From the NCBI RefSeq assembly GCF_004027225.2, contig NC_044290.2, positions 6,216,906 to 6,280,905 of the forward strand: a DNA stretch of 64,000 nucleotides, in the 5' to 3' direction. Each line of letters opens with the position of its first letter. The first letter of the stretch is position 1. The translations under genes and the position numbers were made by a program. The notes beneath the pieces were generated by a model. It searched no databases and had not been told where the DNA came from. It saw only the letters and a program-made list of their open reading frames with translations. Shown one piece after another: positions 5,001-43,740 of the stretch. The DNA comes from Strigops habroptila (Eukaryota > Chordata > Aves > Psittaciformes > Psittacidae).

Positions 5001-8000
5001 AGGAAGCTGTGCGATGCTGCAGGGGATGCTCGCACAAAGCACCTACGAGCTGGCAACACCCCAGATTTGCCTTCTCTCATGACTTTGGTGGAAGAACTGG
5101 CCACAAGACCCCTCCAAAGCAAACCCCCGGCCCCTGCTCCTCACCCAATTCCCCCCCCGCAAGCCAAGAGCAGCCCAAAGGCACCAGAGGACCAGAGCAA
5201 CTGCAGCTGCGGAGGCAGAGGAAGCACCAACCACACTCAACCACACTCGACACGTGTCTGCAGCCACAGCAGAGCCCTGCCCGGGGACACCCCCACTTCC
5301 ACCCTGCTCAAACCCTGTGCTGCAAACACAGCCTGTCCCTGCATCCCCTGCAGCTGGGGTTGGGTGAGCAGAGAGCAATGGGGAGGGTTTGAACAGGATC
5401 CTGTGACCATAACAACTCCTCAGCAGCCAATTTCAGCCCTTTCAAGGCATAAAATTACCCCAACCAGTGTTTGTACCCATTAGACACTGGCCTCAGCCCA
5501 TCAAGTGGAGCATGGTCGCTACCCACTGCACACCCCAGCCCATGCATCCACCAGATGGGCTAAACCAAGGCTGCTTGCTGATTTAAAGACAAGATGAGAT
5601 GCTTCCAGTGGGCTCTTGTGTCTGTTACCACTCTCCCAGGGAGAGGTGGAAGGGTTTCAGCAAGTGCCTGCTGCTGGTTGGGGTGCAGAGGCTGGAAACC
5701 CTCCATCCCCCCTTTCCAGTGCCCTGTCCTGGCTGAAGTGTAAGTCAGGGGAGGTGAGGGGCCGGCAGCCGTGGTGGTCTCACCCGGAAATCTATGCCCA
5801 CGGTGGCTATGAACATCCCGGAGAGAAAGGCCCCATCTTTGAACTGGAGCAGGAAGCAGGTTTTCCCCACGCCCGAGTCTCCGAGTAACATCACCTGCAA
5901 GATGGGTGCAGGGAGAGGTGTCAGCGGGATGGGGAGGGAGCAGCATCCCTGGGGTGATGCTGAGTCCCCCCCTCCAGGTCCCTGCTGTCCCTCTGTTTCT
6001 TTCGCCAGCGCTGGTTCTGATGGGTTTGGGGCACCCCATGAGAGCTGGAAGTGGGATGGGACCCCCAGGGGTGCAGCCAAGCAGTGCCCAGGGCAGCAGA
6101 GCAGCCCCCAGCCACCGAAGAGGGGGACAGTAGAAGGGGAGAGCTGGTGGGAAGGTGGGTACCACAGCAAGAAAAGACATCTGCTGGCTGTCCCGGGCCA
6201 TCTCCCAGCCCAAGAGGCTCCTGGAGAATCAGCAACAGCTCCCAGACACATGGAGCTTTGCCCACAGCCCGAGTGTGCCCAGCCCCAGGGCTGAGGGGGG
6301 TTGGAACTAGGTGATCTTAAGGTCCTTCCCAACCCAAACCATTCTATGATTCTATGATGCATGGCTTGGGCAAACCCTGCCGTGTCCGGGACTCTCACCC
6401 TGTCGGGGCAGACACCAAAGCAAACACGGTGCCTTTTCCCCTCCTGCTAAGCAAACAGGCTCAGCCTGGGCTCTCCGGCACTGCCGGACCTGGGCGGGCA
6501 GCAGCCAGGACCGATGCTGGTCTCCATAACCACATCCTTATCCAACACCCCGATGCTGTGCTCTCCTTCCTGCTTGTAGGCAGCAGCCCTTTCCTGCCCA
6601 GCAATAATTAACCTAATGGTGACTATATCTACTCCCTGCTTAAAAATAGCAGTGAGCAGGACTCCATCCCCACAAGCCCAGCATGTGGGGACACTGGAGC
6701 CTGCCAAGCAAACCCACACAGCCCCACTGGCCCCAGGGTGAACACAGTGAGCTGTGGCCACCCTGCTGGGCCAGCACAGCCAGAGTTGGGGGCTGGACAT
6801 GCTCTGCCTCCTGCCAATTCGCTTTGCTGGTCAAATCCTGTCCCGGGACACCCCGACCCAGCATAGGCAGGTGGGAACACTGCGCAGTTCTGCCTCCACC
6901 TCACTCCAGGTCAAGCTGGCAACTGAATTCCTCCCTTTGACACAAAAGTTGCCCTCCATTGAAAGGAGTTAGAGCACGGAGGATAAAGGCAAAGGAGTAA
7001 GAGGGGTTTAGAGTGGGTGTGGGGGCTGGCTCGGCTCTGGGGCACACAGGCTGCCCCCCTCCCCGGTGCCCTTGGGATGCTGCGATGGGCTGGATGGAGT
7101 CCTGCATCCCTTGCCCTGTATTATGGGGGGCACCACTGCCCAGATGGCAGGACCCCCCCTTGCCCGGAGAAGGACAGGACGGGCTTTCAGAGACTTCCCC
7201 GGGGCAGGGGCCCCTGTCTCCACCTCCCGGGGAGGGGGGGTAGGACCTCCATCCCCACATCTGGGACCCCCCGGGGCAGGGGCGGGCAGGGCTGGGGGGC
7301 TCGGCTGGGACCGCCGCTTTCTTCCCCTTCCCCTTCCCCGTCCCGCAGCCGCTTCCTGGGCGCGATCGCGGCAGCGGAAGAAGCGGGCGGACCCAGGATC
7401 CCCTCCCGGTCCTCCACCCCCCGGACCCTCCAACCTCCACGCCAGCAGGGTTTGGGGGGTCCCATCCCTGCTCCCCTCGCACCCCGCGCCGCCGCCCACC
7501 TTGCCGGACAGCTCGTAGTCCCGGGGCAGCACCGGGGGTATCCCGCTCCCCGCCGGAGGGTCCCCTCTCCCCTTCGGGGGGGTCCCGCTCTCCACCTCCC
7601 CGTCGGGGCCGCTCATGGTGCGCCCGAGCGGAGCCGCCGAGTCCCAGCGCGGCGGGGCCAGCGGGAGCCGCGGACCCCACCCGAACCGCCTTCCTCCTCC
7701 TCTTCCTCCTCCTCCCCAGCCAGTGCCACCCCCGAGGCTGCGCTCCAGCCGCCTCCCTGCCCAGCCCGGCCACGGGATGAGAAAGAGGAGGCTCAAGGCT
7801 GGAAACCTGCCCCCTGCACCAGGGACCTCAGGGTGCTTGGGTTTGCCAGGGGCTTGGTGGCATCAGATGGTGGGCACAGCCCTGGCACATCCCTCTGGGG
7901 ACATGGATGGGGAGAGGAGAAACCACTCACTCCACACATCAACAGCCTCCTGTCCCCAATGGGTGTGGGGATGGACACCCCAAATCACTCCACCACACTG

Positions 8001-11000
8001 GATCAGTGGGGATCCCTCCAGCCCACCCCAGGGTGAGGCTTTGACCTGGGTTAGCACCCAGGCGCAGTGAAACCAGGAGGGAAGTGAAGCAGCGGCCAGC
8101 AGCCGGAAGCCAAGCGCTATGGGGAGCCCGTGCCAGGATGGCTGCTGTGACTCCTACTCCCCTGGCTGCTCAGAGCCTCCAGCATCCTACACCAGACACT
8201 GGGGCACAGCCCTTGTGCTCTTCATGTGGGAAAAACACAAGTGTGGGAATGAGGGAAAAGTCCTGGATGTGTTACCCAAAAACTTACTCTACAAAACCCC
8301 ATCCAGATCCATGTTCTACAGGTCTTCAGGCTGACAGGCACCACTCCATGGACAGAAGCCGTCAGTCCCCTCTGATTTATTCTCCACGGGATACAGAGCC
8401 TATCTCCCCTGCTCCAGGCCTGATTTCAGTCTAACCCCCCCATCCCTGCTCATGCTGATGGGTTTCAGGCATCGGGGCTCCAGTGCAGAGCCTCGCACTG
8501 CTCTCCAGGTAAAGGCCATGGGAGGTCTGATGGCAGAGATGCCCTCTGTGGCAGCGCCCACCCCTGCTGCCAGCTCCTGCTCCAGTCAAGCCTCCCTCTG
8601 CCCCTCGGGAAAAGGGAACCTGTATTTCCAGTCCTGTAGCTCAGACCAAGCAGGGGGATTTATAGTTTATGTACACTCTTTGGCCAGGAAAGTGCCCAGA
8701 GCTGAAGGCTGGAGGCACTCGGAGTTCCTGGAAGTGGCTGAGCTCCCCTGCAGCTTGCTGGGGAGGGAGGCTGGAAGGATAGGGCAAGCCGCACTGGTAC
8801 TCATGGAGCTGTGCAGGCAGGAAGAACGCCTGGCTGAGCATCACCTCCACACGCGGCATTTGCTGCAGGAGAAACATCCCATTTACAGCCAGGAGCTGGC
8901 AGAGGTCAGCAATGTGGCTGAGCCTCCCCTGCCTGCCCAGGGTTCAGCACTGCCCACACGGGCACCCTGGGCTGCAGGCCCTGTGCTGCCTGGCCCCAGA
9001 CCCCTGTGCTGGTACCACATTTCCCTGCTTCCTTGGCCTGGACTAGAGACAAAACCCATGTAGGTAACAGCCTCCTCATGCTAACAGCCATCCTGTGGGC
9101 AACAGCCTCACCATGGATGCTGGTCTTGCTGTGCAGTGAGGTCCCAAGCGGTCTCTGTCCCAGGCTCTCCCGGGAGAGGGGACACACACGTCGGAGCCAC
9201 TCAATGGCATCATGGCAGCTCAGCAAACAGCACTGGAGGGTGGCCGAGCGCCTTTCCCAGGCGCTGCTGCCGTCTGCCTGACTATTCCCTGCCTGGGCTG
9301 CACAGGCAGGACACGGGCTGGCTTATCCCAGGAGAGCAGGGATGCTCCAAAGGCGGCTTTCTGGGTGAGAAGCAAAAGGCTGCACCCAGGCATGGTCCCA
9401 CTGAGGGTTTTGGAATGCGAAGCCTCATCAGTCCTCCACCCCTGCCAGCAGCCCCCAGCAAGCACACAGCCAAATCAGCCCCTCATCCAGCAGCACCAAA
9501 GCAAATTCTCCCAGATCTTTATGCTCAGCACTACTTAAAGCATAGATTCATGGATTGTGATTACCCAAATAAAACTGCTTTCCCAAGGGTGAGTGAGGTT
9601 CACCACACAGGGACCAGTAACCAGGCTCTTACCGTAAACCCGATGCCCACAGTGGCGGAGAAGGAGCCAGGAATGAACTTGCCCTGGTCAAACTGGACCA
9701 GCAGAGATGTCTTCCCCACACCACTATCTCCAACCAGGATCGTCTGCAATCGAGGTAAAGAGGTATCAGCACAGGGAGTAGGCAATGCCCAAGCTGACAG
9801 GCACAGTGTGTTTGGGGGGATGCAGCAGGGATCGGGAGGGACCAGCCCAGCCCCAGATCACAGCAAAGCCATGGGGCCCACGAGTCCTCCTGCACAGCCC
9901 CACTCGGCAGCAGATTGTCCCCATGGGCGCCTGGGTGCCAGCACTATGTCCAGATGGCTTGTCCCGCTGTGCCCTGTTCTTTGCTGTCATCTTTGGTCCT
10001 GTCACCTGCCCAGGGAGGAATTTCCACCCCTCTGAGCATCTTTGCAATAACTTAAATGTGCCCCAGGTTGAGCTTCAGGCATGAGCCCCTCTGTACCCTC
10101 TCCAAGTGCAGAGTGGTGGAAGAGAAAGCAAAGCACAGCCCATCAATGAAAGCAAGCAGGAGAGATGCTCCTGCCCCAGCTTGGGAAGCTGCTGGACAGA
10201 GACAGCCTTGGCTTGCACAGCCCTGGTGGAAAACCTCTTTGGGAGGACTCTGGCAGCGCTGGATCAGGTCCAAAACTGTTTAGTAAAGACAGCATCTTCC
10301 ACAGCGGCTGCACACAACCATTGCCACAGCCACGCAGCCTCTCGAGACACTGGGCTGTTTTCACACTGCATTAACACAGCACTTCCCCCTGGATTTGAGG
10401 CTATGGAGCCCCTCTGCCTCTCCAGCCCTTCCTGGGAAGCTCCAGGGCTCTCACATGGGGAGCAAAGCTTGCTTGTCCCCAGGCAGAAGGAGCCATGCAG
10501 GTGTCAGAGCTGGAGCATTGCCATCACCTCCTGAGCAGTTCCCAAGCTGCCAACCCATGGCCCTGGTACCCACACCGCATCCCTGGGGAGCCCATCCTCC
10601 CTTCTGCTCCTGCCAGGCGTCCTCCAAATCCCCGGCCTAAGGGACACCAACAGTGCAAACACAAGCCCCTCCCTCCTTCTCTGCCAGTATATGGGCTTTG
10701 TTTGCAGAGCCACCGGTGCAAACATTCCCATCCTCCCAGGAAACTGAGGCTTTTCCAACCCTTTTACAGGGACACAAGTGAAAATAAACACTCTCCTAAC
10801 TGGCTTCTTGCTCATAAGTTGTTTTGGCTCTGGCTTTCAGGACGTGGGTGTTACTGTAGCTGCAGCCCTTGCAAGCACTGAGCCATCCCAGTGTCCCCCT
10901 GTCCCCTGCCACCCCTGTAGCTGCAGGGCTGAGCCAGCGAGGTGCTGGGGCTGAACCTCCTCACCCTGTGCTGCACTTCTCTGTATCTGTTGTTTCTCCC

Positions 11001-19947: not shown

Positions 19948-20844
19948 ATGTGGATTTTCCTGGTTTGGACCCTTTTGCCAGGTGAGATGTGGGAGCACAG
20001 GTCAGGCATGTGCACAGGTCAGGCATGTGCAGCATAAGGCTGCCCCAGTGCAGATTTGGATGAGGGAAGAGGAGGCTACAGAGCCTCATGCAGAGCAGAG
20101 CCTCTTGCTTGCTCCTTTCAGCATTTCTGCTTCCACAAGCCCTTTGGGGTTTCCAGTCTCTCCCAGTAACCTCTCTCCTTTCTCATCCTCCTCCTCCTCG
20201 GTGCCCAGTGCCTTGCCTGGGCACCCCCCTCTCTACCTCCTGCACCTCTGTGGCTGAAGTCTCAGGGCAGAGGCCCCCGGGGCAGGATGGGTGCAGGGGG
20301 GGGTCTCCACTTTGCTCTGACTCTGTTTTCTTTCACAGCTGATTCATCCACCACCAAAGGCAGCGATGTGAGCCCAGTGGCCACCACGGGCTTTGGGGAG
20401 CCTCCAGTGCTGTGAGTCAGGGCTCAGGGTGCGGGCAAGCCCCCAACAGCATCCCCTGGCCTAAGACACCTCTTTCCCTGCATGCATCCCTCATCCCTGG
20501 GTTGGTTGCAGCAGCTCCAAGGAGCATCCCAGGGGCAAGCAGGGCAGACGTGCAAGTGTCCCCATCCCCGTTGCCCAGACTCAAGCTTTAGCACTATCTC
20601 CTTTCTCCTATCCAGGTCCCAGCTCAACATCATCTACCTGCTGCTCATCCCTGGCGTGAAGGTGGCTGTGGCGCTGCTCCTGGGGTGTGTGACTGCCTGG
20701 GTAAGGAGCCAACGCAGGAACCATGGCCAGGAAAACCTGCAGCTCTCCGAGGTGGCTGGTACCAGGGCACTGGGCTGCCCACCAATCCCAGAGCCACAGG
20801 GACACCCTCCTGCCCCTTTACCCCCCACCCTGCTGGGGCTGTGA
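19948..20844 (+). CDS. CD300-like activating-type receptor gene lacking an IgV exon
   Basis: Exons 19948-19981, 20339-20411 and 20616-20844 join in one frame to 111 aa. Exon 1 encodes MWIFLVWTLLPG, a signal-peptide exon ending in phase 1, like the two receptors downstream. Exon 2 is a Ser/Thr-rich stalk (DSSTTKGSDV, then SPVATTGF). Exon 3 has a membrane segment, roughly residues 41-63, with a lysine at about 51 (LLIPGVKVAVALL). In this family such a lysine pairs with an acidic residue in adaptors such as DAP12. The tail has no tyrosine. No IgV exon is visible in the 357-bp gap at 19,982-20,338, although phases 1-1 would accept one. A polyadenylation signal is at 21,010-21,015. It could be a decayed receptor, an Ig-less product, or a gene whose Ig exon was lost in this assembly. 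The strong donor TGG/GTAAGG at 20,700 allows another 3' exon. Confidence 0.6.
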
Positions 20845-22552: not shown

Positions 22553-23418
22553 ATGCACTGCCCAGGCCAGTCTACCATACGGCTCCTGCTGCTGCTCACC
22601 TGGATGCTGCTGCCAGGTAGAGCTGAGGGGATCCCTGGGGCTCAAGCCCCACACTTGGAGCAGCCCCACGGGGCAGGAGGTACCGGTGCAGTGGCAGCAT
22701 TCCCACAGCTCCGTGTGTCTCCGCAGGCTCCTGGGCGGTGACGGGGCCTGGCACCGTGCAGGGGTTGCTGGGGGGGTCCCTCTCGGTGACCTGCACGTAC
22801 AAGCCCGGCTATGAGACGATGCCGAAGTTCTGGTGCTATCCGGGAAGCATTTCCACCTGCAAAACTGACATCGTTCTCACCTCGGAGCTGAGCCCCGTGG
22901 TGCGGCGAGGCCGGGTCACCATCAAGGACTATCAAAGACGACGGGTGTTCACGGTGACCATTAAAGACCTGGTTGTGGAGGACGCGGGCACCTACCGCTG
23001 CGGGGTGCGAACGAGCCCACTCTCGCGTGATAAGAGCGCCAAAGTGGAGGTGATCGTGTCCCCAGGTGAGTCCCTGCACATCCGTCTCCCCAGCAACAGT
23101 GACCACCACGTCTGGGGGCCGGGGCTGGGCTGCGGGAGGAGATGGGGTGCTGGGGATGGAGGGATGGAGAGGGACAAGGGCTGGTCAGTGCCCGGCAGCA
23201 CCCGCTGCATGTGTCCCCTCTTCGAATTCGCAGCCCCATCGCCCAGATGGACCCCAACCGTCCCGCCGATCACCGCCCGGCCGCCTGCGGCAGTGACGGA
23301 CGCTCCACCGGGGACCCCCAGTCCTTTCCGCTGCTTCCCGGTGCTGGCCGGGCTGCAGGTGCTGGCGCTGCTCGCCATGAGCGGAGCCGTGCTCTGGGTC
23401 AGCCTGCGGGGCGCCTGA
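22553..23418 (+). CDS. CD300/pIgR-like receptor, single IgV domain, short tail
   Basis: Exons 22553-22616, 22727-23065 and 23234-23418 give 195 aa. Residues 1-22 are a signal peptide ([13 protein letters not shown]). Residues 22-134 form one V-type Ig domain with VTCTY, the CD300-type KFWCYPGS with an extra cysteine pair (WC...STC), and [10 protein letters not shown] Pro/Thr-rich stalk follows, then a hydrophobic segment ([19 protein letters not shown]) and a few-residue tail LRGA. The membrane segment has no charged residue and the tail has no tyrosine. It may therefore be a decoy, GPI-anchored or cis-acting form rather than a classical activating or inhibitory chain. AATAAA at 23,536-23,541. 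Phase-1 introns flank the Ig exon as in mammalian CD300 genes. Specific orthology to a human CD300 member cannot be assigned. Confidence 0.82.
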
Positions 23419-23535
23419 ACCGCGGCCGGGACCCCGCAGCCTCAGCCGGCACCGCTCCGCCCTGGCCCCGACGGCGCGGGTAGGGGGGCAGCACCGGGAC
23501 CCCGCCGGGCCCTTCCTACCGCCAGCGGCGGCTGC

Positions 23536-23541
23536 AATAAA
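23536..23541 (+). terminator. Poly(A) signal of the short-tailed CD300-like gene
   Basis: AATAAA in the context GCAATAAAGCCT, 118 bp after the stop codon and about 220 bp before the next receptor gene starts. Confidence 0.75.
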
Positions 23542-23644
23542 GCCTCTCTGACTCCGCTCTGCGCCTCCGTCTCTTCTTTCCGATGCCTGCCGCGGTCAGG
23601 CAGGCCCGGGGGTCCCAGCGCTCCGCCCCGACAGGGCGGCCGGT

Positions 23645-23712
23645 GCTGCAGGGGCGGCCCCAGGGGCGGCCCCAGGGGCGGGCCGGGCCCCACGGCCCCA
23701 CGGCCCCACGGA
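23645..23712. repeat. Short GC-rich tandem repeats before the ITIM receptor gene
   Basis: Three copies of a GGGGCGGCCCCA-like 12-mer, then three copies of a CGGCCCCA-like 8-mer. They lie about 50 bp upstream of the start codon at 23,762 and may be part of its GC-rich promoter. Confidence 0.6.
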
Positions 23713-23761
23713 GAGGAACCGGGCGCGGCAGGACGCCGAGCCCCACCGCCCTGGAGCGGCC

Positions 23762-26700
23762 ATGCGGCTCCTGCCTCTTCTTGTCTGGGCGCTGCTGCCA
23801 GGTAAGGCCGGCCCGGAGCCTCCGCGCCCCGGAGCAGCCCCGACGGGCCGGGCGGGCGCGGCGGCAGCACTCCCGCGGCTCCGTGTGTCTCCGCAGGCTG
23901 CTGGGCGGTGACGGGGCCTGGCACCGTGCGGGGGTTCCTGGGGGGGTCCCTCTCGGTGACCTGCGCGTACGAGCCCGGCTATGAGACGATGCCGAAGTTC
24001 TGGTGCTATCCGGGAAGCGTTTCCACCTGCAAAACTGACATCGTTCTCACCTCGGAGCTGAGCCCCGTGGTGCAGCGAGGCCGGGTCACCATCGAGGACA
24101 ATGGTACACAACGGGTGTTCACGGTGACCATTAAAGACCTGGTTGTGCAGGACGCGGGCACCTACCGCTGCGGGGTGCGAACGAGCACACTCTCGCGTGA
24201 TAAGAGCGCCAATGTGAGGGTGATCGTGTCCCCAGGTGAGTCCCCGCGTCCAGCATTGCTTTGTCCCACTCCATGTGCTGGGATCCGAGGCTGCAGAGGG
24301 GGTTAGCCGGGAGGAGATAGGTGCCCGCATCACCTGAGGCAGCCCCAGCGTGTGCCACCAGGTCTCGGCAGGCTGCTGCTGTGGCAGGTGCCACCTCCAC
24401 TGGTTCCCCATGCCCAGGTCTTGGCATGGCCCCTTCTTAGCACCCCAGGGTCAGCCACCCCCAACAGTGGAGTGCCCCACACCATATTTTCCCCTCTCTT
24501 CAGATCCTGCTGGTCCTGTCTGTGGTCTAGTTGCCTTATTTTATAACACTAGAGATCTCCTCACCCCTTTGTGTCCTCCCATTATCCACTGTAGGGCCCT
24601 GAGCTTAGGGAATGTCCCTCTCTGTCCCCTCGCCAGGGACCTTGGTGTTATAGTACTGGACTGAGCATGAGGTGCCCACATGCCCTTTCTGCAGGGCGAA
24701 CTCTGTTGTGTGCATGTTTGGGGGGGGATTGAGGCCATGAAAAGCCTCCTGGGCAGGGGATTACAGTCCTCTCACCTCAAGGAGCGTGCTCTGGATGTGG
24801 CAGAGGGGGACCCAGCTTTTCCTCCTGTGATGGACGGTAAGTGGGTCACTTCTGATTCACTGCAAACCCCACATCCTTTTTCCCCTGCAGAGGCAGGGAG
24901 ACTGACCAATCCTCTCCTCTTTTTGTTACAGCTCCGTCTTCCTCCTCCCCGGCATCGCCCTATGGCCCCACCACTGAGCACCGGGATCTCACTAGCTTTG
25001 TATCAGTCTCCACACAGGCAAATCCCCAGGCGGAATCTCTGCAACCACGATCAAATCTCTCCCACCACAAAGGCTCCAGCCCTCCACAGTGAGTGCCAGC
25101 TCCTGCCCGCAGTGGCCACCTCCCTCCATGAGGTCTCTGATGCAGCTGGAGCCCTGCAACCCTGCGGGCTCTTCACACCCCCCTTAAGGATTCAGACCTC
25201 CTGCTTTTGCCTTTAGAGACCAGTGTTCCATCCTCTCATCCAGCCACTCTGCATGGAAAATAATCCCAGCACTCCTGGTTGGTTGGCCCTGGCAAAGCTC
25301 TGATTGTCCCATGTTCATCTTGCAGCTTAAGCAAGGCAAGGGTTATCACCATGGTTTCTAATTGCAGCGCTGACCCCATTTCCTTCCCCAAAATTCAGAG
25401 GGCCTGTTTGCTTGTGGGAAACCAAGCGCTGAGCTGGATCCCTTTTTTAATGTAGTCACATGCAGCCCATCAGAGAGAGTTGAGAAAGCGTGAGACTGGA
25501 GCTTTGTTCCTCCTCCCCTGCCTCTTGGTGGTGATGAAAGAAGCAGGCAAAGCTGAGGCTTCCCATCTGCGTGCTCAAGGGGTAGCTGGCACACTTTGCC
25601 TGGCTGCCCATTACGAGTTCAACAAATAGTGGAGCTAAACCAGAGTTAAATCAGGTGCAGGAACTGATCTTTAAAGCAGTGAAGATGCAGCAGCTCTCAG
25701 ACCCCAGTGCCTGTTTGCTTCTGCAGTTTCCAGTTTGCTTTGCTCTGAGCCCAGCCTGCAGCCTGACCACCCCAAGCCCCATCACCCTCAGCCTCTCCCT
25801 GTGTGCCTGCCCCACACTGGCTCCTCTCCAGTCTGCTTCTGAGAAGTACGAGAACAGAAACACTCTCTTTTTTCTTGCAGCTTGGATGTGGTTGAGCACA
25901 TCCTCACCCCAGTCATCGTAGTGGTTCTTCTTTTGCTTGCAGTTGCTGTCGGTGTTTTGGTAATATTGACTAGGAAGAGGAAGAAGGGTAAGCAAAGCTG
26001 TCACTGCTGCACACATGCTGCTTCCTCACCAGGGCCTGTCTTCTGATATAGTTGGGGGTTTTTCCCTCTATATTTGTTTTTTCTCCCCCATTCCCTCTCT
26101 GATCCATCCAGTTCCCAGGTCCACCACTGAGACCTCCACCAATGTGGTCTCCTTCCCCCAGAGGAGGAGTGGGACCATCTCATGGGTCTCATACCGATGG
26201 GAGCAGGGAATGGCAGCTCTTGGGATGGGTGCTGCCTGGAACAGCACCTGCTTGAGTTTGTTTGGGCACCATCGGCTTCTCCAGCCGTGCTCAGTTGTGT
26301 GCTCAGGGCTCACACTAGGCTTGGTGCAGAGTTCAATGCCAGTGTGATGGGTAGGGAGGGACAGAAGGGGATGTCACCAGCTGGCAGAGGGGGTCTGGTT
26401 TTGTTTGGAGAACTCCAGGTGGTTGATGGGGCAATAGATTCTCTTTCTGCTTTATGGTGAAATTCATAGTGGCAGTGCAGGTTTTTAATACATTTCTTTT
26501 CCTCTGGTTTCACTCGTGTCTAACCTCATCCACGCTTCAACCAGCCCCTTCTGGAACAGCTGTAGAGATGGACAGGACTGGCAGCATGTCACATACAGTA
26601 AGACAAACCACATTGTGCTTAGAGCTCGCTTGGAGAGGGGAAACAGGCTGCCAGAGCCCTTTGCTTTCAGCCAGGTTCATAGCCCTTTAGGCTGGGAGGG

Positions 26701-27630
26701 ATCCTCTGGGCTCCGTTTTGCAACAGGAAGACCCAACCAGGGATTTATGGCAGAGTATTCCTGTGAAGGGAATTTAGGATTGGGCTGAGAGGCTTCTCCT
26801 CAAGCCTCTTCAAGCATGGGAGCTGCTTCTCTGGTTGGAAAAGCCTTGGGAACCAGCAGTAAACGCACCATAGGTAGTTTTCTGCCAGGTTTCAAGGAGG
26901 TGCTGGTGTCACTAACCAGATTTCCCCTGGGGAACGTTGACCCAGCCCTTGCTGCAGGTTAATTCCCCCCCAGTGCTCCTGCAGCCTCATCAGGAAAGGC
27001 AGCAGGATGGGAGATGTTCCCACCACTGCAGTGGGGCAGCAGGAGGTGAAACAGCTCATCCCTCTCCTTCACGTGTCAGGGAGAAGATGCCTTGAACTAT
27101 GCGGACATCAACCACCGCACGAGCACAGCCGAGAGCCAGTTGTACAGCAACACCGAGGCATTACGCTGCTTGGCAGACACCACGACAGAGTACATGGAGG
27201 TCAAGCAGAGCAACAAGGTAGGAGAATGCAGAGCAGTGCCGAGCTCGGAGTGATGGGTGGAAAGCTGGAGCGGATGGGAGACAGTGTGGGCAGTGGGATG
27301 TGTCGGGTGGGCAGGGAGGGAGCTGCAAAGGGATGTGCCAAGCTGGCGTGGAAATGATGCTGGGTACTATGGGTGTCCCCTCTGGTCCCCACGCTGCTCC
27401 TGGATGCTTAAAGCAGCTGAGAGAGGTTCCACCAGAGGGTGTTGTCCTGGAGCAACCCCGCAAAGGATGTATTTTGTTTTTCCCTCCTTTCCCAGCGTTC
27501 GGAAGAGAAAAGAGAGGCCGCATATGCCACCGTGCGGAAGTGTCCACCAGCGCAGCAGGAGATCTACGCCAACGTGCCGTCAGCTCCACAGCCCAGAGGA
27601 GAGCCCCAGAGCCCGGTGCAGAGGGAGTGA
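23762..27630 (+). CDS. CD300-like inhibitory receptor with ITIM/ITSM-type tail
   Basis: Seven exons: 23762-23801, 23897-24235, 24932-25088, 25881-25987, 26545-26597, 27080-27217 and 27496-27630, giving 322 aa. Residues 1-13 are a signal peptide ([14 protein letters not shown]) and 14-126 an IgV domain ([22 protein letters not shown]). A Ser/Pro-rich stalk runs to about 178, then a strong membrane segment ([18 protein letters not shown], about 186-208) followed by TRKRKK. The tail has five tyrosine motifs: LNYADI (Y239, ITIM), QLYSNT (Y254, YxN), TEYMEV (Y270, ITSM-like), AAYATV (Y288) and EIYANV (Y302, YxN). This predicts recruitment of SHP phosphatases and Grb2-type adaptors. The IgV exon has an NGT glycosylation site absent from its upstream twin. 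Poly(A) signal at 27,889-27,894. It resembles CD300A/CD300LF in architecture; one-to-one orthology is not claimed. Confidence 0.85.
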
Positions 27631-42032: not shown

Positions 42033-43740
42033 CAGGAGCAGCCGGGGGGGCGGCCTTGGGAGCGAGGAGCATCCTCCTCCATCACTGTCACTGGCGTGGG
42101 GGGCGTCCCCGGACTGCATCACCCTGTGCCATCTGCACCGTAGGCGCTCGAGGAAGAGAGAATGGGAACCCCTGGGCAGGGGAAAACCTTCTCCTAAGGG
42201 GGATTTTGGGCAGAGGGGTGAGGTGAGGCTTGTCCATCTCCCCCAGGAACGGGCTCTTGCTGGCTGGGGAGAGCATGGAGAGCGCGATGGGCTGCCCAGA
42301 AGGTGGCTGGGAAGAGCTGTGCGTCTGTCCCTCCAGGCCTTGGTGCCTCGGGAAGCGCTGGCAAGGGAGCAAGGGAAGGCTGGTGGGTGTGGGCAGGCTC
42401 TGGACCAGCTCAGCACCCTGAGGTCTCTGCAGGATCAAGCTCTGTGCTGCTCCAGGCAGGGCTGGCACAGGGCTGTGGGGAAAGGCAGAAGCAGATGGGT
42501 TGAAGCCTGACATGTGCACGGAGCTGCTGCTGGGCCAGGGCTTGCATCTCACCCCCTCCACCCCAGCCCTTTAGTTTGTATTTTTATAAATATATATAGA
42601 GAGAAATATATATGATGCAAAGTGCAATAGAGACGAGACCCCGCATTGGCCGGGAAGTCCTTGTGTCTCCATCTCCCCTCAGACTGTAACAGACCTTGTT
42701 CTCTTGGGTGTCCTGGCGCTACAGGACAGGGTGCTGGGTCGTTTACATATTTTTTTTTTACTATGAATTATGATGGTTACTGTTCTGCTGTTTCCCCATT
42801 TCCTGCTGGGTGCTGCTGGGACACTCACCCTGCTGCCCCTCGGGCAGGGTTGTGGGGTGCTGCCTGATGGTGCCAAACATCTGGAGCTGCTGGTGTGTGT
42901 CTTGTGACGGTGGAGCACTTGGTCCATGGTTACAGTCCCAAACGCTGCTGTAGACCCTGCTGCCACCGTCTGCTTCAGCAAAGGGACACCCCAGTTCCTT
43001 GCCAAAATGCCACCCCTTAGGCTGATGTCCTGCTGCAAATGAGAGCAGCTTGCTGTGCCCGGAGCGCTGCCCTGTGCCATGGCCCCTTGGCCCAACCTCT
43101 TCTTTTCTCCTGGGTCATCAGAAGCTCTCAGGACCTGCTGTGCTTCCCTGGCCAAAAAGCAAAGAGGCAAGACAAGGTCCGGCCGGATCCATTGGCGCTT
43201 TCTGCTTCTGCCTCCTTGGGGAAGGGGTGCAGCGGAACATCCCTCTTTCCTGCCATCCTCCCAGGCTCAGGGACTGCCTGTGCTGTTCCTTTCTCCAAGA
43301 CTGACTGCGTGGAGAAGCCTGGGCTTGGTTTGCACCCTGGGAAGACACTTCACCATTTGCCTGCAGCCTGGGAAGGGGAATTGCCTGCTGCATGGGATGG
43401 GGACAAGCAGGAGCCCATTGGGCCCAACCACTGTGCTCCAGGCAGCGCCAGCAGCTCCGGGCCTCGGCCAGTCGTGTTTTGCCATCTCCAAAGATTCCGT
43501 GCCATCCTCCACCCTCCTCCAGCGCCCCACTTCCCGCCTGCCGGGGCTCACGCTCCCTGTCTCCCCAGATTAAGGATGCTGGTGCTGCATGGGGCATGCT
43601 GTCAAACAGAACGGAGACCTTGACAGCAAGGGCAGGTACCTGCCGGTGAAGGGCGCGCGGGGGGGGAAGACGCCAAAACTGTTGGAAGCGTTGTGTAAAG
43701 TTGTCTTAAATATGCAACATCTCCACAAATATATCTCTGG
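42033..43740 (+). other. XYLT2 3' UTR and downstream region
   Basis: Follows the XYLT2 stop. It contains an AT-rich block at 42,575-42,620 with tandem ATATATA words, a T-run near 42,750 and AATATA variants (about 42,587 and 43,729) but no canonical AATAAA. The transcript end is therefore uncertain. No other gene was recognised. Confidence 0.5.

Follow-up and report, generated by a model that had tools for sequence, protein, structure and literature searches.

Paired CD300-type receptor genes of the kakapo carry IgV exons that differ only by amino acid-altering changes

In primates, CD300A and CD300C constitute a receptor pair with an ITIM-bearing inhibitory member, in which an extracellular domain of approximately 112 residues is homogenised within lineages while the signalling parts differ, according to the available parts of the published account (PMC12447643). 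The same source places the mammalian CD300 locus between GPRC5C and RAB37, describes N-glycosylation sites that vary, and names phosphatidylserine and phosphatidylethanolamine as ligands of CD300A/CD300C. Concerted evolution by gene conversion, together with selection, is described also for the paired CEACAM receptors in the available portions of three papers (PMC5112662, PMC7042247, PMC2832619), although these receptors represent another Ig family with signalling parts other than those of the genes considered here. The present locus, from the kakapo (Strigops habroptila), resembles CD300A/CD300C in having an ITIM-bearing member, a homogenised IgV domain and differing signalling ends, but departs from the primate pair, as far as the accessible text describes it, in that the transmembrane segment of CD300C has a charged glutamate whereas the anchor of kakapo gene A is uncharged (PMC12447643). 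The pattern is, on the available text of that paper, already in print for primate CD300A/CD300C, and the kakapo and other birds extend it. The word 'bird' is absent from the main text of the primate study, and the available part yielded no passage on an exon pair differing solely by amino acid changes. No bird case of such CD300 exchange was evident among the literature matches listed, judged by titles and the openings of abstracts in a search with most subscription papers outside its scope.

Two tandem CD300-type genes

The window (the whole 64-kb stretch of DNA that was analysed, to which all positions refer) contains two tandem CD300-type genes, A and B, both on the plus strand. Exon 1 of gene A, with the start codon and signal peptide (22553–22616), ends at a GT border in phase 1 and is followed by the IgV-encoding exon 2 (22727–23065; Pfam V-set, E=2.1e-14) and by exon 3 (23234–23418), which encodes a stalk, an uncharged transmembrane anchor, a four-residue tail and the stop. 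The spliced 195-residue prediction is identical over its full length to NCBI protein P0121 ('CMRF35-like molecule 6'). Gene B has seven exons, namely exon 1 with the start and signal peptide (23762–23801), the IgV exon 2 (23897–24235; V-set, E=3.8e-12), the stalk exon 3 (24932–25088), the first 25 residues of which are absent from a second isoform (P0003), the transmembrane exon 4 (25881–25987), exon 5 (26545–26597), exon 6 with an ITIM (LNYADI) and an ITSM (TEYMEV) (27080–27217), and exon 7 with the tyrosine motifs AAYATV and EIYANV and the stop (27496–27630). Its 322-residue product is likewise identical throughout to NCBI protein P0001 ('CMRF35-like molecule 6 isoform X1'); the only kakapo entries among the proteins listed are P0001, P0003, P0121 and P0122. 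Both products have a single V-set IgV domain by Pfam and, as read off the sequence, a type I membrane layout of signal peptide, stalk and transmembrane segment. The transmembrane and tail region of B matches in addition the Pfam family SIT, the SHP2-interacting adaptor (E=1.6e-6). No further IgV exon was found in the 64-kb window beyond these two, the next best candidate having E=1.8.

The solved folds nearest to a structure model of gene A (mean pLDDT 79) are those of CD300f, then CD300a and CD300c, at 39–47% identity. A sequence search with the B IgV domain similarly returned CD300f/CLM-1 (2nms, 1zox), CD300a (2q87) and CD300c (9z0m) among its matches; in that search the top rank by summed score goes to the polymeric Ig receptor with its five domains, but the single-domain CD300 chains outscore any single domain of that receptor (best match shown). 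The CD300 structures are mammalian.

The designation of B as the inhibitory copy, made in the initial sequence-only reading, is borne out by its ITIM/ITSM tail, whereas the implied activating partner is not apparent in gene A. The anchor of A, a stretch of 23 residues, is an uncharged hydrophobic helix followed by the tail LRGA; neither of the hallmarks of an activating partner, a charged transmembrane residue or an ITAM of its own, was found in kakapo A. Since a charged residue, through which pairing with an adaptor would be expected, is absent, the role of A as a classical activator is in doubt. A scripted search flagged charged anchors in 3 of 30 A-type bird proteins, of which that of Gymnogyps is genuine, with Glu; the two Phalacrocorax flags were discarded as false matches upstream of an uncharged anchor. 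Among the paired B-type proteins the ITIM is present in 30 of 30, duck included, and the ITSM in 21 of 30. Net charge is +7 for kakapo A and +3 for kakapo B; as a general trend this difference was rejected, its direction being inconsistent across species.

With regard to the neighbourhood, exons of Rab26/Rab37 type lie on the minus strand upstream of the gene pair, at 15.6, 9.7 and 5.8 kb, with Rab-26 as the nearest solved chain; the neighbour is presumably the gene named RAB37. Pfam analysis of 20 open frames revealed one near-side Ras match (5 of 32 near-side frames) and 19 frames with no match, and no GPRC5C was seen among the 15 of 62 far-side open frames of at least 130 residues that were included. 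A search with fragment C returned no relatives under a length limit that misses full-length IgV-bearing relatives, and the gene A exon had no relative in virus and prokaryote contig collections, as expected there.

The exon 2 pair and the extent of the homogenised tract

Exons 2 of A and B are 339 bp each, with AG/GT borders in phase 1-1, and are identical at 320 of 339 positions (94%). The 19 differing bases fall in 16 codons, and all 16 codon differences are nonsynonymous; a codon-by-codon recount agreed exactly with the figures first reported from the sequence. Nei–Gojobori (NG86) counting on the pair (S=91.8, N=244.2) gives path-averaged differences of 0.5 synonymous and 18.5 nonsynonymous, the half difference arising because some paths between CAA and GGT at codon 69 include one silent step. 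The codon-based dN/dS comparison proposed as a check, carried out here on the kakapo exon pair, gave a dN of 0.080 against a dS of 0.005 (Fisher p=0.005, on counts that hold effectively 0 synonymous differences, and weaker when the loop block described below is set apart).

The tract of high identity begins 25 bp before the end of intron 1, runs through exon 2 and extends 12 bp into intron 2, spanning 22702–23077 (plus strand) on the gene A side and 23872–24247 (plus strand) on the gene B side. Its margins are identical at 23 of 25 positions at the end of intron 1 and 11 of 12 at the start of intron 2. Over the 150 bp of intron 2 that follow, similarity is weak (z=2.4), with no clear homology. 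The step at the exon, with identity ending a few bases beyond it as originally stated, is real. Intron 1, by contrast, had been described as unalignable except for its last 16–25 bp or so, and that description does not hold: 75 of 93 aligned columns are identical, alongside 19 columns with gaps (z=11 relative to shuffled sequences), and 52 of 68 remain identical when the last 25 bp are removed (z=7). Exon 1 is identical at 34 of 45 positions, so that it and the bulk of intron 1 both stand at 76%; the 150 bp upstream are identical at 79 of 139 (z=3.3). The sharp identity of exon 2 amid diverged flanks indicates that the 5' halves are old duplicates in which exon 2 was homogenised much later.

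Within-species likeness of A and B across birds

The comparison with other birds was made at the protein level, the DNA tract being compared in the kakapo only. The 30 pairs of A- and B-type IgV domains were hand-picked from 203 proteins (the best 120 of 284 plus the best 120 of 153 matches), with one A and one B protein taken per species even where several are present, and the sample is not a random one. A rows were identified by the anchor motif and 25 B rows by motifs in the tail, including one that overlaps the ITIM; five further B rows fall outside the tail-motif rule yet have an ITIM. Since the A rows were chosen by the anchor motif, its presence in 30 of 30 A proteins is by construction. 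Across all 203 proteins listed, the A anchor is present in 67, the B motifs in 96, both in one and neither in 39. The Amazona pair consists of two congeners, the best-matching IgV was used for predictions with several IgV domains, and Pluvialis, represented by an A/B fusion (P0004), was excluded. The addition of nine unpaired rows gave a set of 69.

Within this set, A- and B-type IgV domains of the same bird are mutual nearest relatives in 19 of 30 pairs, and the nearest domain is the own partner for 45 of the 60 paired domains. Within-pair identity ranges from 69 to 99%, with the kakapo pair (86%) twelfth lowest; the 11 species whose pairs are not mutually nearest include Podargus (69%) and Athene (72%). 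A tree of the 69 rows, built on 111 columns with a bootstrap that did not fully settle, contains 29 changes of A/B label against a shuffled mean of approximately 23, each of the 500 shuffles reaching a count at least as low, and trees constrained to unite all A domains (p_AU 6e-18), six parrot A domains (5e-48) or seven parrot B domains (5e-5) were rejected. Kakapo A and B are sisters with moderate support (79/73), on terminal branches of 0.120 and 0.033, respectively. They have in common seven residues absent from 12 other parrot or parrot-like rows, two of which (L and P) are the majority state in non-parrots. The comparison set for residue states consists of 11 parrot rows plus P0183, which was counted as parrot-like because it is placed among parrots in the tree.

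A- and B-type genes co-occur in 30 species sets, duck included, five of which are from parrots. With the IgV domains mixed by species and the distinct ends widespread, the IgV part appears to have been exchanged and the ends not, and the within-species likeness in most of the birds compared suggests that the genes keep copying exon 2 mutually. Paralogs that resemble each other more than orthologs do, inside the tract only, are the mark of concerted evolution, and this was found at the protein level in birds and for the DNA tract in the kakapo. Gene conversion between A and B, recurrent across birds at the protein level, is thus strongly supported by these comparisons.

The amino acid differences and their interpretation

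Taken together, the evidence probably reflects, and we hold this with good confidence, an IgV exon subject to conversion between genes with distinct signalling ends, in which the kakapo differences were probably selected. The sequence-only reading had likewise proposed conversion followed by diversifying selection; the conversion recurs in birds and stands, whereas the case for selection is only moderate once the loop block is removed (P about 0.006–0.03, below).

The densest differences lie in the D-strand/DE-loop block, codons 66–71, which reads KDYQRR in gene A (22924–22941, plus strand) and EDNGTQ in gene B (24094–24111, plus strand). Five codons (66 and 68–71) differ here by seven of the 19 bases, rather than by the six changes reported earlier; the clustering itself (KDYQRRR against EDNGTQR) is confirmed, with at most six differences per 14 bp (P=0.004 were they placed at random). 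The block does not clearly consist of changes new to the kakapo, judging from the loops of other parrots. In Neopsephotus (Bourke's parrot) the A loop is KDYQRRR, as in kakapo A, with identity across codons 65–73, while the B loop is EDNRAQR, so that residues at codons 66, 68 and 71 are assigned to A and B alike in both species. The B loop of Pezoporus is EDYQRRR, and in Guaruba, Amazona and Melopsittacus the A and B loops are nearly or fully alike. The kakapo represents an early branch of the parrots. The sharing with Neopsephotus would imply that the block predates the kakapo–parrot split, that a short tract was exchanged, or that the block arose twice.

Gene B alone of the kakapo pair carries an N-G-T sequon in this block, as had been pointed out, but such a site occurs in A-type domains as well: 23 of 69 rows, 11 of A type and 12 of B type, have a sequon at this loop position, in the form NRT or NRS or, for kakapo B, NGT. 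Given its frequency in both genes, kakapo B would have retained or regained a common feature that A is without. A DNA donor for the loop was sought within the window, and neither strand contains a second match with three or fewer mismatches. A stretch at 43688 on the minus strand, which matches the B loop with four mismatches, was taken as chance.

The account that fares best against selection is one of conversion alone, in which the differences are old paralogous or allelic variants, kept or re-introduced by short tracts with no burst of substitution, and in which selection removed conversions that would overwrite useful residues. This is possible, if doubtful. The loop sharing with Neopsephotus is what it would predict, as is the finding that at seven of the 15 codons tabulated (from codon 3 onwards, leaving out codon 1, S in A and C in B) each of the two kakapo states is seen in rows from other parrots. 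At the remaining codons, however, the A state is unseen in the 12 parrot or parrot-like rows at four (codons 11, 25, 105 and 107), the B state at three, and neither is seen at one. Moreover, the complete lack of silent differences, even beside changed codons, would require tracts of only a few bases at many sites.

Chance offers a less probable explanation, in which a neutrally diverging, recently converted exon happened to acquire no synonymous change; this we consider unlikely. Counting all 19 changes as independent, the probability of zero synonymous changes is 0.0003–0.0025 under nine kappa/CpG settings, and purifying selection of the usual kind, acting on an Ig domain, would lower the expected frequency of such a pattern further. 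Outside the loop block there are 12 base changes in 11 codons, none of them synonymous, and the probability rises to 0.006–0.023 by bases or 0.009–0.031 by codons, and to approximately 0.02–0.06 for nine independent events; these values, which leave chance some room, apply to a pattern picked post hoc from many possible ones. The conversion-alone and chance accounts challenge only the selection part of the best explanation.

A duplication of the exon, or of the 5' half of the gene, in the recent kakapo lineage instead of conversion might be suspected from high identity limited to a single exon and a few bases on its flanks, but it is very improbable, given that A and B types, each with its own anchor, coexist in the 30 species sets, five of them parrot, and that the homologous exon 1 and intron 1 are far more diverged. 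Least credible of all is an assembly artefact in which alleles of a single gene were collapsed, mis-joined or duplicated, named at the outset as what could overturn the finding and suggested by the tandem 339 bp of high identity, for the introns and 3' exons differ, NCBI holds two separately annotated protein entries, and both gene types are present in other birds.

Positive selection after conversion in the kakapo is plausible as a reading of the exon pair. The sites that differ in the kakapo fall at columns that differ within other pairs (mean 0.25 versus 0.10, p=1e-5), and the highest within-pair difference rates are in the CC' loop, CDR3, the C'' strand and the DE loop. Within-species A/B differences track column variability between species (Spearman 0.88), and loop-specific diversification across birds was rejected as an interpretation, since the columns that differ within pairs also vary between species.

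Under the joint reading of conversion and selection, the IgV exon would have been repeatedly homogenised between A and B, by what we infer to be interlocus gene conversion, while the membrane and signalling exons were kept distinct, with an ITIM/ITSM tail on B and, on A, a conserved uncharged anchor with almost no tail. The latest homogenisation in the kakapo would have erased silent differences, and the 16 amino acid differences would have been gained since the last conversion or through it. The D-strand/DE-loop block, which distinguishes A and B in a second parrot as well, would form one part of the 16, and the 11 scattered codons would mostly have changed once conversion had occurred, in A more than in B and probably driven by positive selection. 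The 86% identity of the two IgV domains suggests that A and B share ligands, and if both are displayed on the same cells they would sample these ligands in common, with B as the ITIM brake; conversion would hold the binding face of A near that of B, and selection would permit divergence at some positions. In signalling, A may act as a decoy, as a GPI-anchored form or through an unusual adaptor contact. More tentatively, and with rather little confidence, selection could be keeping the D-strand/DE-loop block of A and B apart despite exchange of the exon across birds, as in the split common to the kakapo and Bourke's parrot, with A serving as a decoy or as an adaptor partner of an unusual, uncharged contact rather than as a classical activating receptor.

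The kakapo, a critically endangered parrot, thus provides a clean bird case, in which an exon without fixed silent differences in the present assembly carries 16 amino acid differences. Bird genomes would allow a direct test of the order of conversion and selection, and what receptor A does is a concrete question raised by its conserved, uncharged anchor.

The start codon of gene A and the interval before gene B

In gene A, the CD300-type gene with the short tail, ATA stands at the place of the start codon of gene B, its ITIM/ITSM-tailed neighbour, and translation begins at an in-frame ATG 24 bp upstream of the ATA (22553-22579, plus strand). A similar N-terminal extension is found at the start of four other parrot A proteins (P0123-P0126). 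The stretch at 23001-24000, which spans the end of gene A to the start of gene B and lies between both IgV exons, has a GC content of 0.74 and a CpG o/e of 0.78; it is CpG-island-like, and may favour recombination.

Neighbouring loci

A third CD300-like fragment (19948-20844, plus strand; splice borders placed by eye) comprises exons for a signal peptide, a stalk and a transmembrane segment, in that order, the transmembrane exon containing a lysine. The 357 bp separating the signal-peptide and stalk exons lack an IgV exon, and no relatives of the joined peptide were found in a search whose length limit would miss full-length IgV-bearing relatives. The fragment may represent a gene that has lost its head, or a pseudogene. 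Further upstream, a single minus-strand Rab37-like gene holds two Ras P-loop exons of unlike sequence, TILVGDSGVGKTSLLVQF and VMLLGDSGVGKTCFLLQF, at 9633-9742 and ~5778-5894, which look like mutually exclusive alternative exons.

CD300 proteins of other birds

Among the listed bird proteins, P0002, P0009 and P0127 (Balearica, Egretta and Willisornis) are predicted to carry two or three IgV domains in tandem, which may stem from the fusion of gene models or from genuine CD300 genes with several IgV domains. The A/B pair of the pigeon Patagioenas (P0138/P0034) is 92% alike, whereas those of Athene (P0137/P0042; 72%) and Podargus (P0146/P0024; 69%) lie far apart, a disparity suggesting that A/B conversion may have lapsed in some bird lineages.
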